Shown piece after piece: positions 7,158 through 61,518 of a stretch of DNA of 64,000 nt. Below the pieces are notes generated by a model. That model searched no databases. It worked only from the letters and a program-made list of their open reading frames with translations, and was not told where the DNA came from. Location: positions 620,001 to 684,000 of the forward strand of contig CP076020.1 of NCBI GenBank assembly GCA_018622675.1. The letters are read 5' to 3'. The translations under genes and the position numbers were made by a program. Every line of letters starts with the position of its first letter. Position 1 is the stretch's first letter. The stretch comes from Mycoplasmatota bacterium. GTDB taxonomy: Bacteria; Bacillota_I; Bacilli_A; Izemoplasmatales; Hujiaoplasmataceae.

Positions 7158-8873
7158 TTGGATAAAAATCGGTTGATTAAAATTTCAAGAGGCGATGAAC
7201 CTGCTGAACTTGTTCTTAAAAACGCTAAAGTCATTAATGTATTTTCAAAAACCATTGAAGAGGAAGATATTGCTATCTCAGACGGGATCATTGTTGGTTT
7301 AGGTTCATATACTGGAAAAGAAGAAATTGACTTATCAGGTTATTATATTTCTCCTGGTTTTATTGATGGTCATGTACATATAGAATCAAGTATGTTAACA
7401 CCAAATTACTATGGCGCAGCTACCTTACCTAGAGGCACTACATCAGTAGTGGCTGATTGCCACGAAATAGCTAACGTTGCAGGGAAAAAAGGTATTGACT
7501 ATATGATTAATGCTTCGAAAAATTCAGTTCAAGATGTTTTTATGATGATACCTTCATGTGTCCCATCAACACCATATGAAAGTAATGGAGCGACGCTTTT
7601 AGCAAGCGATATTGAATCTTATGCTGAGGATAGGAATGTATATGGCTTGGGAGAAATGATGGATTATGTTGGTGTTGTTCATGCCAATAAGGAAGTATTA
7701 AAAAAAATTGATAAATATAAGAATTTAATAGTCGACGGACATGCACCTAATCTATCGAAAAAAGAACTTAATGCTTATGTTTTAGCAGGGGTAAAAACTG
7801 ATCATGAATGTGTAAGTCCAGATGAACTTATAGAAAAAGTTAAACGCGGAATGTATGTACATTTAAGACAAGGATCTCAAACTAAAAATCTTGTAGACTT
7901 ACTTCCTGGTTTATCACCGGGTATTTATGATCGAGTGATGTTTTGTTCAGATGATTTACATCCAAATGATATTCTAAATGTTGGACACATGGATGAAAAT
8001 ATAAGACTGGCTATAGCCAATGGCCTAGATCCTATCATCGCTATTTCAATGGCAACGATCAATATAGCTCATTGTTATAGGCTAGATAAATATGGTGCTA
8101 TAGCTCCTGGTTACTATGCAGATTTAGTAGTCTTTAAAGATTTGAAAAATCTTGATGTAGAAAGAGTTTATAAAAAAGGTGTTATTGTCGCTGAAAACCA
8201 TAAGCTTTTATATAAGGTTAAAGATTATATTCCAAAAGATTTATTAGATTCAGTCTATGTACATTTAAAAGATATAAATTTAGAATTAAGATTAAAAAGT
8301 ATAGATGTTTATGTCATGGGATTAATTAAAAACAATATTACAACAAAGAAAGTTAAAGCAAAAGTTATTTTGCGTGATGGTTTATTTTTGCCTAAAGATA
8401 ATCCTGGTCTTTTAAAACTAGCTGTGATTGAAAGACATCATTATTCTGGTAATGTTGGCTTTGGTATCGTTAAAAACTATGGATTAAAAAATAGCGCCAT
8501 TGCTATGACCATAGCTCATGATTCTCATAATATAATCTGTTTAGGTGATAATGATGATGATATGTACCAAGCCATAGAGAAAATCAAAGATATTGGTGGA
8601 GGTATTGTGCTTGTCTCTAATGGTCAAGTATTAGAATACCTTGCACTAGAAGTCGGAGGATTAATGTCATTGAAGGATGTTAAATATGTAGAAAATAAAT
8701 TGATACTTTTAGAAAAAGAAATGAGAAATTTAGGAGTCAAAGAAGATATTGAAGACCCATTCTTACAACTAGCATTTTTATCTTTGGCAGTCATACCAGA
8801 GCTTAAAGTAACCGATAAAGGATTGTTTGATGTAGAACAGTTTAAAATAATACCACTGGAAGTAGGTGAATAA
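7158..8873 (+). CDS. ade: Adenine deaminase
   Basis: A 571-residue amidohydrolase converting adenine to hypoxanthine plus ammonia, which feeds xanthine dehydrogenase upstream. Typical features are the metal motif GHVHIESSM (H72, H74), DCHEIANV, DGHAP, TDHECV, CSDDLHPND and the C-terminal adenine-deaminase domain. Length matches the family. I chose TTG 7158 because AGGAGGT at 7144-7150 sits 7 nt upstream; the nearby ATG at 7153 is out of frame and too close to that site. It is part of the same operon. Confidence 0.9.
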   Translation: MDKNRLIKISRGDEPAELVLKNAKVINVFSKTIEEEDIAISDGIIVGLGSYTGKEEIDLSGYYISPGFIDGHVHIESSMLTPNYYGAATLPRGTTSVVADCHEIANVAGKKGIDYMINASKNSVQDVFMMIPSCVPSTPYESNGATLLASDIESYAEDRNVYGLGEMMDYVGVVHANKEVLKKIDKYKNLIVDGHAPNLSKKELNAYVLAGVKTDHECVSPDELIEKVKRGMYVHLRQGSQTKNLVDLLPGLSPGIYDRVMFCSDDLHPNDILNVGHMDENIRLAIANGLDPIIAISMATINIAHCYRLDKYGAIAPGYYADLVVFKDLKNLDVERVYKKGVIVAENHKLLYKVKDYIPKDLLDSVYVHLKDINLELRLKSIDVYVMGLIKNNITTKKVKAKVILRDGLFLPKDNPGLLKLAVIERHHYSGNVGFGIVKNYGLKNSAIAMTIAHDSHNIICLGDNDDDMYQAIEKIKDIGGGIVLVSNGQVLEYLALEVGGLMSLKDVKYVENKLILLEKEMRNLGVKEDIEDPFLQLAFLSLAVIPELKVTDKGLFDVEQFKIIPLEVGE

Positions 8874-8874
8874 C

Positions 8875-10122
8875 TTGAGTTTTACAAAACAGTTTAAATG
8901 TACTCAATGCGGACAAACATATCCTATTTCTAAAGATATTTTAGTGTGTCCGAATTGTAAAGACCAAGGTATTTTAGATATTGAATATGATTATGAAAAA
9001 ATTAAAGGAATAATGACAAAAGATTATTTTGCCAATAATAATCATTACTCAATATGGAGATATTTACCCTTATTACCTGTTGAAGAAAAATATACTAAAA
9101 ACACTTTAAGAGTGGGATGGACACCACTATATAAAAGTATGCATTTAAAAAATATTTATCATGTTAAAGAACTATATTTTAAGGATGAAGGATTGAATCC
9201 TACACAATCACTAAAAGATAGAGCCTCAGTTATTGCCTGTGTTAAGGCATTAGAAGCTAAACAAGATACTGTAGCATGTTCATCAACTGGTAACGCTGCG
9301 TCTTCCCTAGCTGGTAATGCATCGAAGATGGGCTTGAAGACCGTCATCTTTGTTCCTAAGAGAGCACCTATTGGTAAATTGTCTCAATTGATGATTTTTG
9401 GTTCGAAATTGATCAAAGTTAATGGTGATTATAAGGATGCTTACAATTTATCAAAAAAAGCAATCGAACATTATGGTTGGTATAATCGAAATGCTGCAAT
9501 TAATCCCAATTTAATTGAAGGCAAAAAAACAGTTGCTTTAGAAATATCTGAACAAATGAATTTTGATATTCCTGATTGGGTGATAACATCTGTGGGAGAT
9601 GGTTGTACTATAGGTGGTGTTTATAAGGGGTTTTATGATTTGTATCAATTAGGATTAATCAATCAAATACCAAAGATTTTAGGTGTTCAAAGCGAGGGTT
9701 GTTCGCCATTTTATGATGCTTTTCATAAAGGTTTACCTTTAGAAGAGACAGATGAAAATACCATTGCCGATAGTATCGCAGTGGGTATACCACGAAATCC
9801 TATCAAAGGAATTAATGCTGTGAAATTTTCAAAAGGAACTTATGTAAAAGTATCAGATGATGAAATTAAAGATTCTATGAAATTGCTAGGTAAGGAAGAG
9901 GGTATTTTTGCTGAACCAGCCGCAGCTGCTTCATTGGCAGGATTTATAAAAGCCAGACATGCAGATATTATTTTAAAAAAAGATCGTGTGGTTGTTATAA
10001 TCACAGGCAATGGATTAAAAGATACAAAGAATGCTTTAGAAATTGTTGGAGAACCAGTTCTTTTAGATGCAAATTTAAAAGATTTAATACAATATATAGA
10101 AAGAGGAGAAAGAAATGAGTAA
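8875..10122 (+). CDS. Threonine synthase-like PLP-dependent enzyme with N-terminal zinc ribbon
   Basis: A fold-type II PLP enzyme of about 415 residues. An N-terminal zinc ribbon (C9, C12, C25, C28) precedes the catalytic domain, with PLP lysine K114 in QSLKDRAS and the phosphate loop SSTGNAASS. Sequence type is threonine synthase, but no homoserine or homoserine kinase gene is nearby. Its place in a purine operon suggests a beta-elimination or replacement on a diaminopropionate- or serine-like intermediate. I chose TTG 8875 because AGGTGA ends 5 nt before it; an in-frame GTG at 8866 has no properly spaced site. The substrate is unknown. Confidence 0.75.
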   Translation: MSFTKQFKCTQCGQTYPISKDILVCPNCKDQGILDIEYDYEKIKGIMTKDYFANNNHYSIWRYLPLLPVEEKYTKNTLRVGWTPLYKSMHLKNIYHVKELYFKDEGLNPTQSLKDRASVIACVKALEAKQDTVACSSTGNAASSLAGNASKMGLKTVIFVPKRAPIGKLSQLMIFGSKLIKVNGDYKDAYNLSKKAIEHYGWYNRNAAINPNLIEGKKTVALEISEQMNFDIPDWVITSVGDGCTIGGVYKGFYDLYQLGLINQIPKILGVQSEGCSPFYDAFHKGLPLEETDENTIADSIAVGIPRNPIKGINAVKFSKGTYVKVSDDEIKDSMKLLGKEEGIFAEPAAAASLAGFIKARHADIILKKDRVVVIITGNGLKDTKNALEIVGEPVLLDANLKDLIQYIERGERNE

Positions 10123-11470
10123 AATTCCATTTGGACCGACATATGATGAAATGTTAAATCCTTCACACATCGATCCTAAGATTAGAAAGAAAGCACTTGA
10201 AAGAAAAGAAAAAGAATTGGATCCTATTAACTTATTCAATATAAATTGGAAAGATGAAAAAAATCAGGTCCATAAAGTTGTTTTACCTAAAGAATTAACT
10301 GGAGTAGATGCCAATATTGTTGTGCTCTTAGGTAAATATTTTCCATCGGGGTCACATAAAGTTGGACCAGCATATTCGACCTTAATTGAAGGTTGTGTGG
10401 ATCAAACAATTATTCCAGGAAAACATACGATATTAGGCCCTTCAACAGGTAATTTTGGTATAGGTGTATCATATATTTGTAATTTAATGAAATATGATTC
10501 AATTGTTATTATGCCAGACAATATGAGTAAAGAAAGATATGACAGAATTAAAAGATATGGTGCTAAGTTAGACTTAACACCAGGAACTGAATCTGATGTT
10601 ATTTTAACTTTGGAAAAAACTTTTGAGTTGGCAAAAGATCCTAAAAATAGATCTTTAGCACAGTTTGAATTACTCCCTAATTATAGATTTCATCGTCATG
10701 TGACTGGCAATTCATGTATAGAAGCTATTAAGGGTATCGGTAATGAAAGAATTGCTTGTTTTGCATCAGCTCCTGGATCAGCTGGTACTTTAGGCGCTGG
10801 AGATCAAATAAAAAAAGTATTTCCAGAAGCAAAAATAGCAGCACTTGAACCTTATGAATGCTCTACTTTAATGAACGGTGGGCGCGGACAACATAGAATC
10901 GAAGGTATTGGAGATAAGATGTGTACTTTGATTCATAATGTTATTAATACCGATTTTATCGTCATGATAAAAGATGAAGAAACTGTTCAAGGACTAGAAG
11001 TGATTCATAATGGTAGTGATGTTTTAGTGGAACAAGGTGTTGATAGGGAAGTTGCTGAAAGTTTAAAAGATCTATTTGGGCCATCTGGTATATGTAATAT
11101 CATCGGTGCTATCAAAATGGCCAAATATCTACATTTAGGGCCAGGAGAAAATGTTGTTACTATTGCTACTGATGGATATGATCGTTATAACACAGTTTTA
11201 GATAGTTTAAAACATAGATATTTAGAAACTGAAGACTTTGTTTTAAGAAGATGGTTTAAAGATATTTTTCTAGGGGCAGATACTAAATATATTGCGGATT
11301 ATAGACCAGATTCACAAAAGGAAAAGTTATTTTTACAAAAAGAAAAAGATTGGTTGAAATTTGGTTATAAAAAAGATTATCTTGATGCAATGAAACATAT
11401 GTCTTTTTGGGATGATGAATATAATAAGATTTTCCTTTATGACAAATTAATTAAAGAGATGAGGGAATAA
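10115..11470 (+). CDS. PLP-dependent lyase (cysteine synthase/tryptophan synthase beta fold) of the purine cluster
   Basis: A 451-residue fold-type II PLP enzyme, distinct from the preceding one. Putative PLP lysine K82 lies in [11 protein letters not shown], with a phosphate loop [10 protein letters not shown] near 108-117 and a glycine-rich segment [12 protein letters not shown] near 218. The C-terminal 80 residues after the catalytic domain are charged and family-specific. It overlaps the upstream PLP gene by 8 nt, so the pair is coupled. In most ygeW/ygeY clusters a diaminopropionate ammonia-lyase (YgeX) sits here, and one of these two enzymes may fill that step. Reaction not established. 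Confidence 0.7.
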
Positions 11471-11471
11471 T

Positions 11472-12686
11472 ATGAATTTTAAAGAAATTTTACAGTTAAG
11501 TCAAAGTTATGAAAAAGATATGACAGCTTTTTTAAGAGATATGATTGCTATCCCTAGTGAAAGCTGTAATGAAGAAAAAGTTATTCAACGGATTAAACAA
11601 GAAATGGAAAAGGTAAACTTTGATGAAGTTAGAATAGATCCTATGGGTAACATCATAGGTCGAATTGGAAATGGAAAACATATAATAGCAATGGATGCTC
11701 ATATTGATACAGTAGGTGTGGGTGAAATGAATAACTGGAAGTTTGATCCATATATTGGTTACGAAGATAAAGAAAATATCGGTGGACGCGGTGCTTCAGA
11801 TCAAGAAGGCGGCATGGCATCGATGGTATATGCTGGAAAAATTATAAAAGATTTAGGTTTAGATAAAGAATATACATTGCTTATTACTGGTACCGTTCAG
11901 GAAGAAGATTGTGATGGTTTGTGTTGGCAATATTTAATTGAACAAGAAAATCTAAAGCCAGAATTCGTGGTTATAACTGAACCAACCAATTTAAATATAT
12001 ATAGAGGTCACAGAGGCAGAATGGAAATAAAGGTTTCTACTTCAGGTATTTCATGTCATGGTAGTGCACCTGAAAGAGGAGATAACGCAATTTATAAAAT
12101 GGCGCCTATTTTAATAGAACTTGAACAATTAAATCATAAGTTAATGGATAATGATTTTTTAGGAAAAGGAACATTGACTGTAAGTCAAATTGGTCATTCA
12201 TCACCATCAAGATGTGCAGTAGCAGACGGATGTTGGATTTCAATAGATAGAAGATTAACTGATGGGGAAACTTATATGAGTGCAATTAAAGAAATAGAAG
12301 CTTTAGAATCAGTTATAAAAGCCAAAGCCAAAGTAGAAATGTATGACTATGAAAAAGCATCTTATACTGGATTGGTTTATCCAACCAAAGCATATTTCCC
12401 TACTTGGGTTTTACCTGAAAATCATGTAGTCACAAAAAGTACTGTTAGTGCTTACGAGTCATTATTTGAGAAAAAACCATTAGTTGATAAGTGGACATTT
12501 TCTACTAATGCAGTATCTATCATGGGTAGACATAATATACCTTGTATTGGTTTTGGCCCTGGTAAAGAAGAACAAGCACATGCTCCAAATGAAGTAACTT
12601 ATAAAGACCATTTAATTAAAGCTTGTGCAATGTATGCAACAATACCTACAATGTATGTAAATAATATAGAAGGAGAGAAACAATGA
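11472..12686 (+). CDS. ygeY: YgeY-family (selenium-metabolism-linked) M20 hydrolase
   Basis: A 404-residue di-zinc hydrolase of the peptidase M20 / acetylornithine deacetylase superfamily. Metal and catalytic residues are visible: H77 and D79 in DAHIDT, D110 in [10 protein letters not shown]144/E145 in VQEED, a TEPT motif, and a C-terminal EEQAHAPNE histidine. The YgeY subgroup is recognised by its fixed context beside ygeW and ssnA. It probably hydrolyses an N-carbamoyl or amide bond in a ring-opened purine product. It starts 1 nt after the PLP lyase and overlaps ygeW by 4 nt (ATGA). Confidence 0.84.
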
Positions 12687-13666
12687 AACCAGAATTTAAA
12701 GGGAAACACTTTATAACACTAGATGAATGGAAAAAAGAAGAAATTGAAAGGTTACTGGAAGTATCATTTTTAATGAAAGATAAATTTCATCATAATGAAG
12801 ATACAACATTCTTAAAAAATAAAACCGCATTTTTGATGTTTTTTGAGCAATCAACAAGAACTAGAAATTCTATGGAAGCTGGTATTGCTCAATTAGGTGG
12901 TCATGGTAATTATCTAGACACATCAGGTATGCAAATTTCTCATGGAGAAAGTGCAAAAGATACAGCTGTCATTCTTTCTAGTTACGGTCACGGGATTGCA
13001 TGTAGAAATTGTTTCTGGGAAATAGGAAATAAGTTTCTTAGAGAGATGGCTGAGCATTCAACTGTTCCTGTCATGAATCTTCAATGTGACTTATATCATC
13101 CTATGCAAGGTTTAGCTGATTTAATGACAATAAAAGAAGTTTTCCCAAAAATGGAAAACTTAAAAGTTTCAATTATTTGGGCTTATGCAACAACTCATAA
13201 AAAACCAATATCTGTGCCATTAACTCAAATTTTATTATTCCCTAGATTTGGAATGGATGTGACGCTTGCATATCCAGAAGGCTATGACTTACCAGAATGG
13301 GCAATAGAAAAAGCTAAAAAATATGCTAAAGATAATAATGGAACTTTTACTATTACTCATAAGATCGAAGAAGCATTTGAGAACGCTGATGTTGTTATTC
13401 CAAAAAATTGGGGTAGTTGGGTAAATAATCAGTCTGATGCGGTTGTTGATGATCTTTTAGAATCATATAAATCTTGGAAATGTACAGAAGACTTAATGTC
13501 TTTGGCTAATAAAAATGTTAAATATATGCATGCTTTACCAGCTGACAGAGGTAATGAAGTCGAAGATTCTGTGATAGATGGCAAGCATTCAATTGTTTAC
13601 CAAGAAGCAGAAAATAGACTACATACAGCTAAGGCAGTTATGGCAATGACGATGGGGGATAAATAA
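12683..13666 (+). CDS. ygeW: YgeW-type carbamoyltransferase
   Basis: A 327-residue member of the aspartate/ornithine carbamoyltransferase family, shorter than E. coli YgeW. The carbamoyl-phosphate loop STRTR is at residues 57-61, with [11 protein letters not shown] for the second phosphate site and [11 protein letters not shown] near the C-terminus. In purine clusters YgeW is thought to run in the catabolic direction, moving a carbamoyl group from a ureido intermediate to phosphate for ATP production. No carbamate kinase is in this window. The last purine-specific gene of the operon. Confidence 0.84.
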
Positions 13667-13672
13667 AAGATT

Positions 13673-14206
13673 ATGAGAATCTTTATCGCAATCAATTTTA
13701 TCTCAGCGATAAAGGATGAAATTTCTCAATTGATTGATCTCTTAGAAAATCAAAATTATCATGGGTATAGGACTGCCCATGATAATTTACATATGACTTT
13801 ACATTACTTAGGGGAAACAAAAATAAATATAATACAGGAAATTATTAATCAATTAAAAGAATTAGATTTACCTTCATTTTTAATTAGAACCGATCATTTT
13901 AAATTTTTTGATAAAGGAAAATCAAATAAAATTATGTATCTTGGTATAGAAGAAAACAAAGATTTATATCATTTACATGATCATATAATTGGTTCTTTAA
14001 ATAAACTAGGTTATATGATTGATAAACGCGGGTATACTCCACATATTACTTTATTAAAGCACGTGCATATTGAGAATCAGCACACGATTCGCATTGATGT
14101 TAAATCTTTAACAATCATGGTGGATTCAGTGAGTGTAATGGAATCAAAAAAAATGAATGGAAAATTGATTTATTCTCCAATTGCAAACATTAAATTAAAA
14201 AAATAG
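13673..14206 (+). CDS. thpR: RNA 2',3'-cyclic phosphodiesterase (2H family)
   Basis: A 177-residue 2H phosphoesterase. The two signature HxT motifs are visible, HMTLHYLGE near residue 40 and HITLLKH near 122. ThpR/LigT proteins open 2',3'-cyclic phosphates on RNA ends. It begins 6 nt after ygeW and ends in a strong terminator, so it is probably cotranscribed with the purine genes without taking part in the pathway. The family is clear; its in vivo role is poorly known. Confidence 0.82.
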   Translation: MRIFIAINFISAIKDEISQLIDLLENQNYHGYRTAHDNLHMTLHYLGETKINIIQEIINQLKELDLPSFLIRTDHFKFFDKGKSNKIMYLGIEENKDLYHLHDHIIGSLNKLGYMIDKRGYTPHITLLKHVHIENQHTIRIDVKSLTIMVDSVSVMESKKMNGKLIYSPIANIKLKK

Positions 14207-55780: not shown

Positions 55781-55809
55781 TTTACAAATAGTACTTGTTG
55801 TATTATAAT
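55781..55809 (+). promoter_or_regulatory. Promoter of the padR-jetABC operon
   Basis: TTTACA (55781-55786), 17 nt, TATAAT (55804-55809), 65 nt before the first start codon. Confidence 0.75.
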
Positions 55810-55818
55810 ATAAACAGA

Positions 55819-55856
55819 TTAAGTATAAATGGTTTATGTATAAATAAGTTAAGTAT
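55819..55856 (+). repeat. Three direct repeats with 15-bp period in the padR leader
   Basis: TTAAGTATAAAT at 55819, TTATGTATAAAT at 55834 and TTAAGTATTGTG at 55849 start exactly 15 bp apart. A fourth, weaker copy in the same phase covers the -10 box (55804). They are likely binding sites for a regulator, with PadR the obvious candidate. Confidence 0.65.
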
Positions 55857-55874
55857 TGTGAGGAGGTGATGATA

Positions 55875-56225
55875 ATGGCTAATTCTAGTGAACATATAAG
55901 AGGTTTTACTGATTATATTATTCTATCAATATTAGAAAAATATGATAGTTACGGATATGAAATTGCTAAGATAATTGAAGAAGTAAGTCGTCAAAATATT
56001 AATTTAAATGAAGCAACTTTATATATTGCATTAAAAAGATTGCAAAAAGATGGTAAAATAACTAGTTATAAGCAAAAAAATAAAAAAGGTATGCTGCGTC
56101 GTTATTATCGTCTAAATGATACAGGAAAAAAATCATTAAAGCAATTTAGAAAAGACTGGCTTATATTAGAGAATACATTAACCACACTTGTAAGTGGTAA
56201 GTTTAAATATAAACGATATGAATAG
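55875..56225 (+). CDS. PadR-family transcriptional regulator
   Basis: A 116-residue winged-helix protein. FTDYIILSILEKYDSYGYEIAKII...LNEATLYIALKRLQKDGKI...RRYYRLNDTGKKSL is the PadR pattern, and the dimerisation helix at the end is short. ATG 55875 is chosen with AGGAGGTGAT upstream; GTG 55866 and ATG 55869 overlap that site. It ends 11 nt before jetA, so it is the first gene of the SMC operon and probably controls it. Confidence 0.85.
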   Translation: MANSSEHIRGFTDYIILSILEKYDSYGYEIAKIIEEVSRQNINLNEATLYIALKRLQKDGKITSYKQKNKKGMLRRYYRLNDTGKKSLKQFRKDWLILENTLTTLVSGKFKYKRYE

Positions 56226-56236
56226 GAAGTGATGAT

Positions 56237-57640
56237 ATGGATGTTTTTGAAATTATACCTAATAATTTTTTTAATTTATTATCAGGTAAGAATAGGTCGA
56301 TTTATGTTAATTGTCTACTAGAACTCTTTAGGGTTTATGAACAAGGATCAATATTAGGAATGGATAAGGAGATTGCAAGACAAGCTTTAGAGGATTATTT
56401 AGATCTTAATCCATTAGAAGAAGAAATTGAAACTGATGATGAAGAAACTGAATGGACCAATCGTGACCGTGCAAATCAAATTTTAAGACGTTTAGAAAAA
56501 ACTGAATGGATTGATATAGATATCAATAATAATTATGAGGAAATTATTAATTTTAGAGATTATGCTATAACAATCATTGAAGCTTTACAAGAAATATCTA
56601 ATGATAGTTTTTATGAAAACACTGAAGATGATGGTCATGAGTTTAGAGGGTACATTTATACTTCATATTCATTATTGAATAGCGATTATGGCGAATACGG
56701 GATGGTGCTAGACCAAGTATATAAAAATACTTTAGCTTTTGTTAGAGAAATTAGAAAATTAGATTCTAGGTTAAAGTATTATATTAAATCTATAGTTGAT
56801 CATTCTGAGATAAAAGATTTAATTAATTATTTAATTAATTATAAATCAGAACTGATGGATAAAGCTTATAGAAGACTAAAGACTTCAGACAATATTAATA
56901 AATATCGAGCTGATATTGTTCGAAAACTAGAAAAAATACAAGAAGATAAGTTTGTGATGGAGATACTAGCAAAAGAACATCTTGTAAAATCTCATAATAA
57001 TTATGAGATGGCAATGATGAAAGTGAATAAAAAAATCGATGATATTATTGATATATATAATTCTGTATCTTATATTATTGATGAAATTGATAATAAAAAT
57101 AAAGTATATGTAAACACAACCATTGCCAAAATTAAATTTTTATTATCCGATGATGAAAATGTGATAAGTAAATTAACGAAAATTTTAAGTTTTACAGCCG
57201 AAAGTGTTAAAAACAACCAAAGCAAAAAAGCTTTAAATATAATAAGACCGATGTTTACCTTATCGACATATCAACAAATTTCGAAAGATTCATTGTATAC
57301 ACCAAGAGGTATATATAAACATATCGAAAATCAATTTTTAGAAGAAAATGATCATGGCTTTGATCAAACATTAAGAGATGAGTTTTACAGAGAATTTGAA
57401 ATTCATTATTCAGAAGAAGTTATTCAAAAGTATTTAGATGAATATTTTAGAAAAAACTCACTAATAAAGGCTAGTGATATAATAAATGCTGATATGAGTG
57501 ATGAAGCCATATTAAGGCTATTATATATCCTGGTTTATGCTGGGGATGAAATGAATTATTATATTCAACCATTGAACAACAAGATAAATAACTCAAGATT
57601 TATTATTGATGATTTTGAAATCATTAAGGGGGAAAATTAA
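56237..57640 (+). CDS. jetA: JetA-family (MukF/kleisin-like) subunit of a Wadjet-type SMC complex
   Basis: A 467-residue protein recognised as Wadjet JetA-like from its N-terminal segment (FEIIPNNFFNLLSGKNRSIYVNCLLELFRVYEQGS), predominantly helical sequence and place before jetB-jetC. By analogy with MukF it would bridge the SMC heads through N- and C-terminal winged-helix regions. An acidic patch lies near residues 55-72. AGGAAG precedes the ATG. It is followed without a gap by jetB. Family call is from pattern recognition, not a database search. Confidence 0.75.
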   Translation: MDVFEIIPNNFFNLLSGKNRSIYVNCLLELFRVYEQGSILGMDKEIARQALEDYLDLNPLEEEIETDDEETEWTNRDRANQILRRLEKTEWIDIDINNNYEEIINFRDYAITIIEALQEISNDSFYENTEDDGHEFRGYIYTSYSLLNSDYGEYGMVLDQVYKNTLAFVREIRKLDSRLKYYIKSIVDHSEIKDLINYLINYKSELMDKAYRRLKTSDNINKYRADIVRKLEKIQEDKFVMEILAKEHLVKSHNNYEMAMMKVNKKIDDIIDIYNSVSYIIDEIDNKNKVYVNTTIAKIKFLLSDDENVISKLTKILSFTAESVKNNQSKKALNIIRPMFTLSTYQQISKDSLYTPRGIYKHIENQFLEENDHGFDQTLRDEFYREFEIHYSEEVIQKYLDEYFRKNSLIKASDIINADMSDEAILRLLYILVYAGDEMNYYIQPLNNKINNSRFIIDDFEIIKGEN

Positions 57641-58246
57641 ATGATATTAGAAAATTTTGACGAACTAAATGTAGGACAAAAGAAACTATTTGCTAAAACT
57701 TGCTTAAGGCTTTTATCAAACAGTTTTCTAGCTAAAGACAAAGAAGATAATAAAGAAATGTATTACTTTATTATCAGCTTTAAACAATACTTTGATGAGT
57801 ATTTTGATGTCATGGATTATGAATTGATTTTAGATAGAGAAATGGGCGCAGTTCAATTGATTCATAGAGATAATAATAATTTATTAAGATTAAAGAAAGA
57901 TGAGTCAATCGTTTTGTTAATTTTAAGAATTTTGTTCCATGAACATTTAGTTAAAACCTCTGTAAATGATAATGTGATTATTAAGGTTGATGAAATTCAT
58001 GATTACTATGATTCTTTAGAGTTGAAGAAAAAAATTAATAAAACCGATTTAGTTAAAATATTAAGGTTGTTTAAAAGAAATAACTTAATTGAAACGCTTG
58101 GAGATATAACAAAAACTTCAACACCAATTATCATCTATCCAACGATTTTACTTGCAATTAATACACAGACAATTAATGATGTATATAATATTATTAACCA
58201 TATTGAAAACAAAACAGGAAGTGACACTAATGAAGAAGTTAACTAG
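57641..58246 (+). CDS. jetB: JetB-family (MukE-like, DUF4194) subunit
   Basis: A 201-residue protein resembling DUF4194/JetB. The N-terminal helix LNVGQKKLFAKTCLRLLSNSFLAKDKEDN, a YYFIISFKQYFDEYF segment and a winged-helix C-terminal half (RLFKRNNLIETLG...IYPTILLAI) are the usual parts. In Wadjet and MukBEF complexes this subunit binds the kleisin and DNA near the SMC heads. The ATG directly follows the jetA stop. The end overlaps jetC by 17 nt. Confidence 0.75.
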   Translation: MILENFDELNVGQKKLFAKTCLRLLSNSFLAKDKEDNKEMYYFIISFKQYFDEYFDVMDYELILDREMGAVQLIHRDNNNLLRLKKDESIVLLILRILFHEHLVKTSVNDNVIIKVDEIHDYYDSLELKKKINKTDLVKILRLFKRNNLIETLGDITKTSTPIIIYPTILLAINTQTINDVYNIINHIENKTGSDTNEEVN

Positions 58247-61200
58247 AGTAAGATTAATTAATTGGCACTATTTCGCTAATGAAACAATCGATATTAAAAA
58301 CAACACCTTAATAACGGGTCAAAATGCTACTGGAAAATCAACAATTGTAGATGCTATAGCATTTGTGTTAACTGCAGGTGACCAAATATTCAACTTAGCT
58401 GCTAATGATAAAAGTAAACGTGACTTAAGAGGTTATGTTAAGTGTAAACTAGGAATAGACAATCAAGAATATTTAAGAGCGGGAGATACTACTGGTCACA
58501 TTGCATTAGAATTTTATGATGAAGTAAAGCAAAATTACTTTACTGTTGGGACTATCATTGACATAGTAGGAGAGATTATACCACCGAAAGTTCTATTCTA
58601 TGAGTATGATGACCAAATTAATGAAAATTTGTTTGTTGATGATGAAGGAGTTATTCTAACAACAATCAATTTCAAGAAAACTAAGCAAGCTCAAAAAGTA
58701 CATTTAACTAGAAAAGAGGCAAAATACTCTTTTAGAAAAAAATTTGGTTCAATCAACGAAAACTACTTTTCACTATTACCAAAAGCTTTAGCATTTAAAC
58801 CGATTTCGGATGTTAAAGAATTTATATATAAATATCTACTAGAAGAAAGAGTGTTAGATGTAGAATCTATTAAAGAATCTATTCGATCTTATAAAGATTT
58901 AGAAGCTACATTGAAAATCATTAAAGAAAAAGTAAGTGACTTAGATGATATTGCGAAAACTTACGAAGAGATACAGGAAAATATTTCTCAAAAAGAATTT
59001 TATGAATATTTTCTTCAATTGTTAGAAATTGAGAATATCAAGGATTCAATTGACAAAGAAAATAAAAAATTAGAAAAAGTTATTTTAGATAAAGAGCAAA
59101 ACAATAATCTTTTGGCTGAGTTGGAAGAACAGCTTGAGTTATTAGATGAACGCTCTAAAGAAGTATATTCAATGTTGTCAAATAATGATACCTTCAAAGC
59201 GGATGAAATATATGATAAAGAAATGAGCAACCTTACAAAGAAAATAAATGAACAAACGGAAATGCGTGATTATGCGAAGACCAAAGCGAAAGCGATGAAG
59301 GAAGTAATTGAAGATTTAAATGGTGAATTTAATCAAAAAGCATATAAACAATTATCAAAAATTGATTTAATTAATATTGATGATGAGAATTATGAAAGCA
59401 CAAAATTAAAGCTGATTCAAATTGAAAAAGACTTAAACAATATCGTTGACAATAACCGTTCTGAATACGGGAAATATCAACATGTTAAACAAGGTTTAGT
59501 AAATGATATAAATGATGTTTATCAGACTCTTAAAGGACTAGAAAACAATAAACTTAAATATGATCCTATGACTTTGAAACTACAAAGTGCAATCATAGAG
59601 GGAGTTAAACAACAATACAACGTCGATATCAATGTCCATATTTTATGTGAATTACTTGAGATTACTGATCCTAAGTGGCAAGATACTATAGAAGATTATT
59701 TAGGTAGACAAAGATTTAATTTAATCGTAGAACCGAGATATTTTGATTTAGCCCTTAGTGTCTATAATCAAATTAAAGACTCTTTAAATATTTATGGTAT
59801 TGGCTTGGTCAACACAAAAAAAATACAAAAATTTGATCAATATAGGCCTAACTCATTAGCATCAATCATCGACTCAGATAATAAAGATGCAAAACACTTT
59901 ATTAACATGACATGTGGAAATTTAATCATGGTTGATCAAGTATCAGAATTAGAAAATTATTCTCAAGCAATAACTTTAAGTGGAATGGTCTATAGATCTT
60001 TTACAGTTCGTTCCCTATATAAACTAAAAGACAAACCATTTATTGGTAAAAATGCAAAAACAGCCCAATTAGATACATGGAGAAAAAAAGCAAAAGAGCT
60101 TAGTCTTGAACACCAAAGAATTAATAATATGATGTCTAATATAAATGAAGAAAATTTATTAATTAAAAAGTTGAATTTAGGACATTATATTTCAATGTTG
60201 AAAAACTATTATTCAGTAGATAGTTTAAAAGAGAAGAGAAAAACATTAGCTGAAAAGAAAAGAAACCTTCCACAAGAGAGTTTAAAAGACTTAAGAGTCG
60301 AGTATGAAAATATCAGGGAAGAAATTAGAAATTATAATGTTAGTCGACAAAAAGCATATGAAAAGAATGGTTCTCTAAATAATAAAGAAAGCAATATTCA
60401 TGATAAGTTATTAGAATACGAAACTTCATTACGTGATGTAAATCAAGTGATTAACGAACAAACTGAAGAAAATCCTGGACTTAGAGAAAAAGCTGAAGCT
60501 CTATTCAAAGAGGAACTCTCTCAATTAAGTATTCAGGATATTTTAGAGAGTTATTCTCATAAAATCACAAGAGAATTAAATAATATTAACCACTTAGAAG
60601 ATTCTTTACGAACAAAACAAATCCAATACACTCAAAAATATAACTTAAGTTATCAGTTTGGTTTAGATTATATTGATGAATATTTAGACGAAAGGAATAA
60701 ATTAGTTAAATCTGAATTAGTTAAATATGAATCTAAAGTAAGAGAAGCAAGAGAAGTGGCCGAAAAATTATTCAAAGAAGATTTTATGTCTAAGTTACGT
60801 AATTATATTATTTCTGCTCAAGAAGAGATCAAAAAAATTAATGAAACTTTAGAAAATATTCGTTTTGGTGAAGATAGTTATGAATTTATTTTTCCAAAAA
60901 GTAAAGAGTATGGCGACTATTATGATATGGTTTTATCTGATGAAGCGATTAAATCGGGTGAAGAGATATTTAACTATGACTTTGAGATGAAATATCAAAG
61001 ACAGTTAGAAGAGTTGTTTATTAACCTAGCATCTGAGGATTTGAATTCTAAGGGTAGCGTAAACAAATTCACTGATTACCGTACTTATATGGATTATGAT
61101 ATATTAATTACTAATAAATCTGGTGATAAAATTAATTATTCAAAAGTATTTAAAGAAAAATCAGGTGGAGAAACTCAAGTTCCGTTTTATGTAGCTACTT

Positions 61201-61472
61201 TAGCATCTTTTGTAAGAGTGTTTGAGCAAGCTTCAAGAAAAGTTAATCAAGAATCAATAGGTTTAATTTTATTTGATGAGGTATTCGATAAAATGGATTC
61301 ATCGAGAATTAAAGCAATGATGAAGTTTATCCAAAAATTGCCAGTTCAGATTATGCTTTCAACACCACCGCAAAAAATGGAAATCTTACAAAAGTATACA
61401 GATACAACTGTGATTACGTTGAGAGATGGAAAAAAAGCAAGAACAATGCAATTAAATAAACAAGACGCTTAA
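58230..61472 (+). CDS. jetC: JetC-family (MukB-like) SMC ATPase
   Basis: A 1080-residue SMC/SbcC-type ATPase. Walker A GQNATGKST lies at residues 30-38, the signature SGGETQ near 978 and Walker B LILFDE near 1012-1017, at opposite ends as in all SMC proteins. Long charged coiled-coil arms (about 230-450 and 620-880) flank a hinge-like region (about 465-610). I chose ATG 58230 (AGGAAG 7 nt upstream, start MKKLTRVRLINWHYF), not the 26 codons open upstream. A strong terminator follows, with no jetD. Confidence 0.85.
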   Translation: MKKLTRVRLINWHYFANETIDIKNNTLITGQNATGKSTIVDAIAFVLTAGDQIFNLAANDKSKRDLRGYVKCKLGIDNQEYLRAGDTTGHIALEFYDEVKQNYFTVGTIIDIVGEIIPPKVLFYEYDDQINENLFVDDEGVILTTINFKKTKQAQKVHLTRKEAKYSFRKKFGSINENYFSLLPKALAFKPISDVKEFIYKYLLEERVLDVESIKESIRSYKDLEATLKIIKEKVSDLDDIAKTYEEIQENISQKEFYEYFLQLLEIENIKDSIDKENKKLEKVILDKEQNNNLLAELEEQLELLDERSKEVYSMLSNNDTFKADEIYDKEMSNLTKKINEQTEMRDYAKTKAKAMKEVIEDLNGEFNQKAYKQLSKIDLINIDDENYESTKLKLIQIEKDLNNIVDNNRSEYGKYQHVKQGLVNDINDVYQTLKGLENNKLKYDPMTLKLQSAIIEGVKQQYNVDINVHILCELLEITDPKWQDTIEDYLGRQRFNLIVEPRYFDLALSVYNQIKDSLNIYGIGLVNTKKIQKFDQYRPNSLASIIDSDNKDAKHFINMTCGNLIMVDQVSELENYSQAITLSGMVYRSFTVRSLYKLKDKPFIGKNAKTAQLDTWRKKAKELSLEHQRINNMMSNINEENLLIKKLNLGHYISMLKNYYSVDSLKEKRKTLAEKKRNLPQESLKDLRVEYENIREEIRNYNVSRQKAYEKNGSLNNKESNIHDKLLEYETSLRDVNQVINEQTEENPGLREKAEALFKEELSQLSIQDILESYSHKITRELNNINHLEDSLRTKQIQYTQKYNLSYQFGLDYIDEYLDERNKLVKSELVKYESKVREAREVAEKLFKEDFMSKLRNYIISAQEEIKKINETLENIRFGEDSYEFIFPKSKEYGDYYDMVLSDEAIKSGEEIFNYDFEMKYQRQLEELFINLASEDLNSKGSVNKFTDYRTYMDYDILITNKSGDKINYSKVFKEKSGGETQVPFYVATLASFVRVFEQASRKVNQESIGLILFDEVFDKMDSSRIKAMMKFIQKLPVQIMLSTPPQKMEILQKYTDTTVITLRDGKKARTMQLNKQDA

Positions 61473-61480
61473 TACTTATT

Positions 61481-61518
61481 AGAGTTGATTCCTTTAAGAA
61501 ATCAACTCTATTTTTTTG
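61481..61518 (+). terminator. Intrinsic terminator closing the jetABC operon
   Basis: TAGAGTTGATT, 9-nt loop, AATCAACTCTA and TTTTTTT, starting 8 nt after jetC. Confidence 0.92.

Follow-up and report, generated by a model that had tools for sequence, protein, structure and literature searches.

A JetABC operon lacking the JetD nuclease is core to the Hujiaoplasmataceae and probably encodes their only SMC condensin

Introduction

In the described Wadjet systems, the nuclease JetD cuts plasmid DNA that is extruded by JetABC. MukBEF of E. coli serves in chromosome folding and segregation. For JetABCD systems, no chromosomal activity had been documented at the time of review; MksBEF of Pseudomonas aeruginosa, which is related to Wadjet, has no nuclease and has a documented role on the chromosome, probably originated by loss of JetD, and MukBEF may itself descend from Wadjet (PMC10586767). 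In Borrelia burgdorferi, which has Smc and an orphan MksB, an SMC protein of the Mks type has an effect on chromosome contacts (PMC10406323).

The locus analyzed here is encoded in a window of 64,000 nt (positions 620001-684000 of contig CP076020.1, assembly GCA_018622675.1) from a one-contig genome of 1,648,168 bp. It shares with Wadjet type I (JetABCD, also EptABCD or MksBEFG) the JetA, JetB and JetC families, the A-B-C gene order, the gene sizes and the ATPase motifs. It differs from this type in that JetD is missing, in being core and vertically inherited in bacteria without Smc-ScpAB, and in its genetic context, with putative PadR control in the host family and a link to sepF in Anaeroplasmataceae-like bacteria. 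With MukBEF of the gammaproteobacteria it has in common the kleisin-KITE-SMC trio, the absence of a nuclease and the occurrence in lineages without Smc-ScpAB, but the sequence families differ and the complex has a separate origin here, from a Firmicutes JetC branch. P. aeruginosa retains Smc in addition to MksBEF (PMC7485682), whereas no SMC complex other than JetABC was seen here. The Borrelia case differs as well, as MksE and MksF are missing and Smc is retained there, while in our case the A-B-C complex is full and Smc has been lost. A literature search of open-licence papers revealed no published report of a JetABC clade that lacks both JetD and Smc.

Results

At positions 55781-61518 of the window, four co-directional genes in the order padR-jetA-jetB-jetC have their own promoter and their own terminator (Table 1). 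An earlier note on this DNA had described tightly packed JetABC-like genes behind a PadR gene, closed by a terminator after jetC. This description is borne out: profile searches matched all three proteins (JetA as PF18982/DUF5716, JetB as DUF4194, and PADLOC JetC1), jetA is followed by jetB without any gap, the jetB and jetC frames share 17 nt, and a hairpin with a T run follows. The terminator was missed by a simple terminator scan and was found by its folding energy. The operon lies between hrcA-grpE-dnaK-dnaJ (upstream) and rsmE-mtaB (downstream), all named from their translations. As the padR-jetABC arrangement is conserved across the Hujiaoplasmataceae, it is not due to chance.

Table 1. 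Features of the padR-jetABC operon (window coordinates).
Feature	Start	End	Strand	Evidence or remarks
Promoter	55781	55809	+	-35 TTTACA, 17-nt spacer, -10 TATAAT; matches the consensus at 11/12 positions; alignment covers nine related loci
Tandem array located between the -10 box and the RBS, likely operators for PadR	55810	55857	+	15-bp period (ATAAACAxxTTAxxT); role inferred
padR, winged-helix regulator of the PadR family	55875	56225	+	PF03551 E=4.4e-20
jetA, kleisin subunit	56237	57640	+	PF18982 JetA E=1.4e-70; PADLOC JetA1 7.9e-108
jetB, KITE subunit (DUF4194, MukE/MksE-like)	57641	58246	+	PF13835 E=1.6e-28; PF21980 MksE 28.3 bits; PADLOC JetB1 3e-57
jetC, MukB-like SMC ATPase	58230	61472	+	PADLOC JetC1 2.9e-299
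Intrinsic terminator	61480	61517	+	Hairpin 61480-61510, then T run; -12.8 kcal/mol, z=-4.59

The ATPase motifs of JetC are intact (Walker A at residues 30-38, signature SGGE at 978-981, Walker B at about 1012-1017), and their residues are invariant across 17 JetC sequences. A pattern search retrieved the motifs from 73 of 74 JetD-less JetC proteins. The exception is a longer frame (1160 aa) in which an upstream-extended start probably moves Walker A outside the searched part. Models of JetABC are the best ones for the host proteins, which reach only 11.7 bits with the MukB Pfam model (cut-off 23). They are assigned to JetA1, JetB1 and JetC1 and not to an already described nuclease-free family, a placement which the earlier note had considered. 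Within the PDB, the JetC profile matched solved JetC chains only, and a relative of JetA was not found by sequence search. The predicted JetA model (pLDDT 69.5) resembles MukF in a Foldseek comparison (9gm7, E=4.5e-5), followed by JetA from E. coli (8q72, 1.1e-4), yet the TM-scores are low (about 0.2). An 'IFDR' motif in JetB is the reported contact to JetD in type I systems. It was considered as a marker of the nuclease-less state, but it is absent from JetD-bearing and JetD-less JetB proteins of this branch alike and so does not discriminate between them.

According to the earlier note, the operon and its flanks lack jetD. Inspection of the locus agrees with this, and the proposed genome-wide search gave the same picture, with zero matches to JetD_C (PF09983) and DUF3322 (PF11795) in the whole 1.648-Mb sequence. 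Among the 34 genomes from Hujiaoplasmataceae, JetD_C was never found above the cut-off. The only match below it (G014, 17.7 bits) is part of a separate and divergent JetABCD-like set (locus L096; JetD1 1.5e-7), and detection of this set indicates that a nuclease-bearing system is recognisable when it is present. In addition, a custom profile was built from six JetD proteins of Clostridia and run over 225 loci. Apart from the six themselves, it matched only a divergent second JetABCD of G119. G014 and G119 each have, in another part of the genome, a further Wadjet-like system that includes JetD.

The distribution of JetABC was analyzed in 90 genomes from the order Izemoplasmatales (Hujiaoplasmataceae, the host family, 34; Izemoplasmataceae, 49; a third family, 7). 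JetA is present in 30 of the 34 genomes from the host family, and either JetA or JetC in 32 of them as well as in all seven of the third family. JetABC was not found in any of the 49 Izemoplasmataceae genomes; absence counts rest in part on incomplete MAGs, though several of these 49 are nearly complete. In the host family the locus is fixed as hrcA-grpE-dnaK-dnaJ-(padR)-jetABC with rsmE-mtaB, and the position after the dnaK-dnaJ operon is also kept in most of the loci examined from the third family, with short insertions in some genera. The neighbourhood survey suggested in the earlier note thus recovers a JetD-less padR-jetABC unit that is conserved across the host family. JetC distances follow those of DnaK (Spearman 0.87), as do the DnaJ distances (0.85). 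Within the genus, dN/dS against two clean relatives is 0.02-0.07 for jetA, jetB and jetC and 0.03-0.07 for dnaK, and the jetABC values are lower than those for rsmE and mtaB; the values are rough, because dS is near saturation. One member of the genus (G007) has a disrupted jetA frame, perhaps an assembly error. A patchy, horizontal spread as for Wadjet was not seen, given the occurrence in 32/34 and 7/7 genomes, the fixed synteny and the DnaK-tracking distances. JetABC in Hujiaoplasmataceae is core, vertically inherited and under purifying selection.

The padR gene was found in all 18 loci of the host family for which the upstream side is covered, but in none of the loci examined from the third family or from Anaeroplasmataceae-like bacteria. 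The tandem array, located downstream of the -10 box and ahead of the padR ribosome site, has a best period of exactly 15 bp in each of the nine loci that were aligned (shuffle p 0 to 0.04). The same test detected a 15-bp array in further genera of the host family (L141, L142, L144, L152). It is seen by eye in L137, L138, L140 and L147 after shifting the start codon, and L146 prefers a period of 17. Loci without padR do not have a 15-bp array upstream of jetA. The natural reading of this pattern is that the array is a PadR operator, likely used in cooperative autorepression. That PadR adds a control which is atypical of defence operons, as stated in the earlier note, applies to the Hujiaoplasmataceae; it does not hold in general, as the third family and the Anaeroplasmataceae-like bacteria have JetABC without padR.

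Searches for the canonical Smc-ScpAB complex, with controls that came out as expected, found no ScpA in the 90 Izemoplasmatales genomes and, in the 34 Hujiaoplasmataceae genomes, no ScpB above the cut-off. Smc is absent from 89 of the 90 genomes. Its sole match (G076) is on a 4.6-kb contig with 43.7% GC (30.1% in our 64-kb window), adjoining an ftsY-like start. Because of the short contig and the deviant GC we did not accept it as a genuine member of the order and judged it a probable, though not proven, contamination. In the host genome, the best SMC_N matches are frames of 364 aa and 563 aa (the size of RecF and RecN) and short ABC-type frames; among the matches, only jetC exceeds 1000 aa.

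We had predicted that Izemoplasmataceae contain Smc-ScpAB in place of JetABC. This prediction failed, as neither complex was found in the 49 genomes. A frame of 1082 aa in one of these (G079) was checked as an SMC candidate and proved to be an extracellular binding-protein-like sequence. Either this family has an SMC protein that escapes all profiles used, or it lives without one. The order may thus be able to do without an SMC complex, and the work of Smc need not fall to JetABC, which weakens the word 'replaced'.

A genome scan with a JetC alignment resulted in 80 loci. Of these, 45 are from Anaeroplasmataceae/Acholeplasmatales-like bacteria and six from Clostridia, and the others are from Izemoplasmatales and two isolated lineages. 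In each of the Clostridia, jetC is directly followed by a gene for 402-442 aa, which is JetD according to Pfam in the four that were scanned, and all six match one profile. JetD was not found in any of the other loci. Canonical Smc was then examined in 39 of these genomes. It is present in all six Clostridia with JetABCD (E 0 to 9e-217) and absent from all 33 genomes with a JetD-less JetABC, which represent at least two orders. In the JetC tree, which has long branches among the outgroups, a branch with an SH-aLRT of 100 sets the 51 JetD-less rows apart. The nuclease-less JetC proteins are a single clade, and for this reason the 33 genomes are not independent counts: loss of JetD and loss of Smc each appear to go back to a small number of ancient events, not to 33. 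JetD appears to have been lost and not gained later, since near and distant outgroups both have it. Only distant relatives of JetC were encountered in a plasmid collection.

In the Anaeroplasmataceae-like bacteria, sepF (PF04472) follows directly after jetC in all 45 loci, the frames often overlapping or abutting. The script had counted 44; locus L200 was added because a spurious short JetC match had misplaced the jetC end. A 366-aa gene upstream in these loci, initially taken for a possible ftsZ, is ychF. In another lineage (L153), jetABC is followed by groES and a GroEL-like gene. That the neighbours are housekeeping genes which differ by lineage argues against a defence island.

Discussion

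Judged from the genomes, a Wadjet-type motor appears to have lost JetD and to have become the one SMC condensin that can be recognised in these lineages. As the usual chromosome organiser has been lost in these wall-less bacteria, JetABC probably took over that housekeeping job. We assign a probability of roughly 0.7 to the reading that JetABC is the sole condensin of the cell, a nuclease-free extruder of chromosomal DNA loops. Among the three options of the earlier note, the MukBEF-like chromosome role is the best supported, while there is no positive evidence for a different effector. Following what is known of the protein families, JetA, the kleisin, and JetB, the KITE protein, would bridge JetC dimers, and ATP hydrolysis would drive the extrusion of chromosomal DNA loops, leading to chromosome folding and segregation as for MukBEF. 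The complex would thereby stand in for the lost Smc-ScpAB. In the host family, PadR would repress its own operon via the array with the 15-bp period and so set the dosage of the complex. JetABC may in addition restrict circular DNA without cutting it.

JetABC could instead still serve in defence without JetD, trapping, compacting or silencing plasmid or phage DNA by loop extrusion, or passing it to an unrelated nuclease. The proteins do belong to a defence family, and Smc5/6 silences viral DNA by compaction and not by cutting (PMC10586767). However, the genes are core and vertical rather than patchy, they have a fixed locus adjoining housekeeping genes and are linked to sepF in relatives, and the absence of Smc coincides with that of JetD. 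In the two genomes with a separate JetD-bearing system, defence looks like a task of its own. We therefore consider this unlikely. Slightly less likely still is a narrower chromosomal task (e.g. DNA repair or terminus handling), with Smc-ScpAB lost by genome reduction and not replaced. The Izemoplasmataceae, which seem to live without either complex, would fit, but Smc is missing from every tested genome with a JetD-less JetABC, across at least two orders, and the constraint on JetC equals that on its housekeeping neighbours. An ordinary Wadjet with a remote or unrecognised nuclease, also proposed in the earlier note, is highly improbable: a divergent JetD can fall under the Pfam cut-off, as in G014, but neither JetD_C nor DUF3322 gave a candidate in the one-contig genome, the Clostridia loci that were examined have JetD immediately behind jetC, and the whole JetD-less clade is without it.

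Returning to the role as a chromosomal condensin, we favour, with somewhat less confidence than for the role itself, a wider scenario in which JetD was lost a single time, leaving a defence SMC motor without its weapon. In at least two wall-less orders, this motor would then have replaced Smc-ScpAB as the only condensin. This would be an independent replay of the proposed route from Wadjet to MukBEF, which the JetD-less clade fits. The jetABC-sepF operon would tie the motor to division in Anaeroplasmataceae-like bacteria, and PadR would control it in Hujiaoplasmataceae.

The clade, which has Wadjet-type proteins with neither a nuclease nor another SMC, includes the cultured Hujiaoplasma nucleasis zrk29 and Anaeroplasma bactoclasticum ATCC 27112. 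It is also a warning that annotation pipelines can mistake a housekeeping condensin for a defence system. The clade renders an origin of MukBEF and MksBEF by nuclease loss directly testable, and it suggests that JetABC alone can fold chromosomes.

Neighbours and variants of the jetABC loci

The repeat array ahead of padR is kept across the Hujiaoplasmataceae and goes with the presence of this regulator gene. At the other end of the operon, several genera of the family, but not the window, have a small lipoprotein-like gene (about 156 aa, with a weak thioredoxin match) that separates jetC from rsmE. In one MAG of the host genus (G007, locus L133), the jetA frame is split into two ORFs, which may be an assembly error or a real inactivation. 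The Erysipelotrichales bin carrying locus L153, where chaperonin genes follow jetABC, also lacks Smc.

Coordinates of features at jetABC loci
Feature	Locus	Position	Remark
Tandem array, 15-bp period	window	55810-55857	between -10 and RBS
Small lipoprotein-like gene	L147	13318-13788
jetABC with chaperonin genes	L153	4955-12133	jetABC followed directly by groES and a GroEL-like gene
JetABCD-like set	L226 (G119:C1)	7621-13944
JetABCD-like set	L096 (G014:C40)

Additional and possibly absent SMC complexes

In two genomes of the JetD-less group, a further and divergent gene set resembling JetABCD lies apart from the main locus and includes a JetD homologue (L096 and L226). Existing JetC and JetD models score poorly on L096, which may represent an undescribed Wadjet subtype. 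Neither JetA, JetC, ScpA nor Smc was seen in 49 Izemoplasmataceae genomes (G034-G082, e.g. G079, zrk13), one probable contaminant aside; this family possibly has no recognisable SMC complex at all, or else an undescribed one.

Association with sepF

In the Anaeroplasmataceae-like loci (L155-L212), ychF (366 aa) is a frequent upstream gene, and sepF lies immediately 3′ of jetC in all 45 of 45. Together, jetC and sepF are predicted to form a condensin-division operon.
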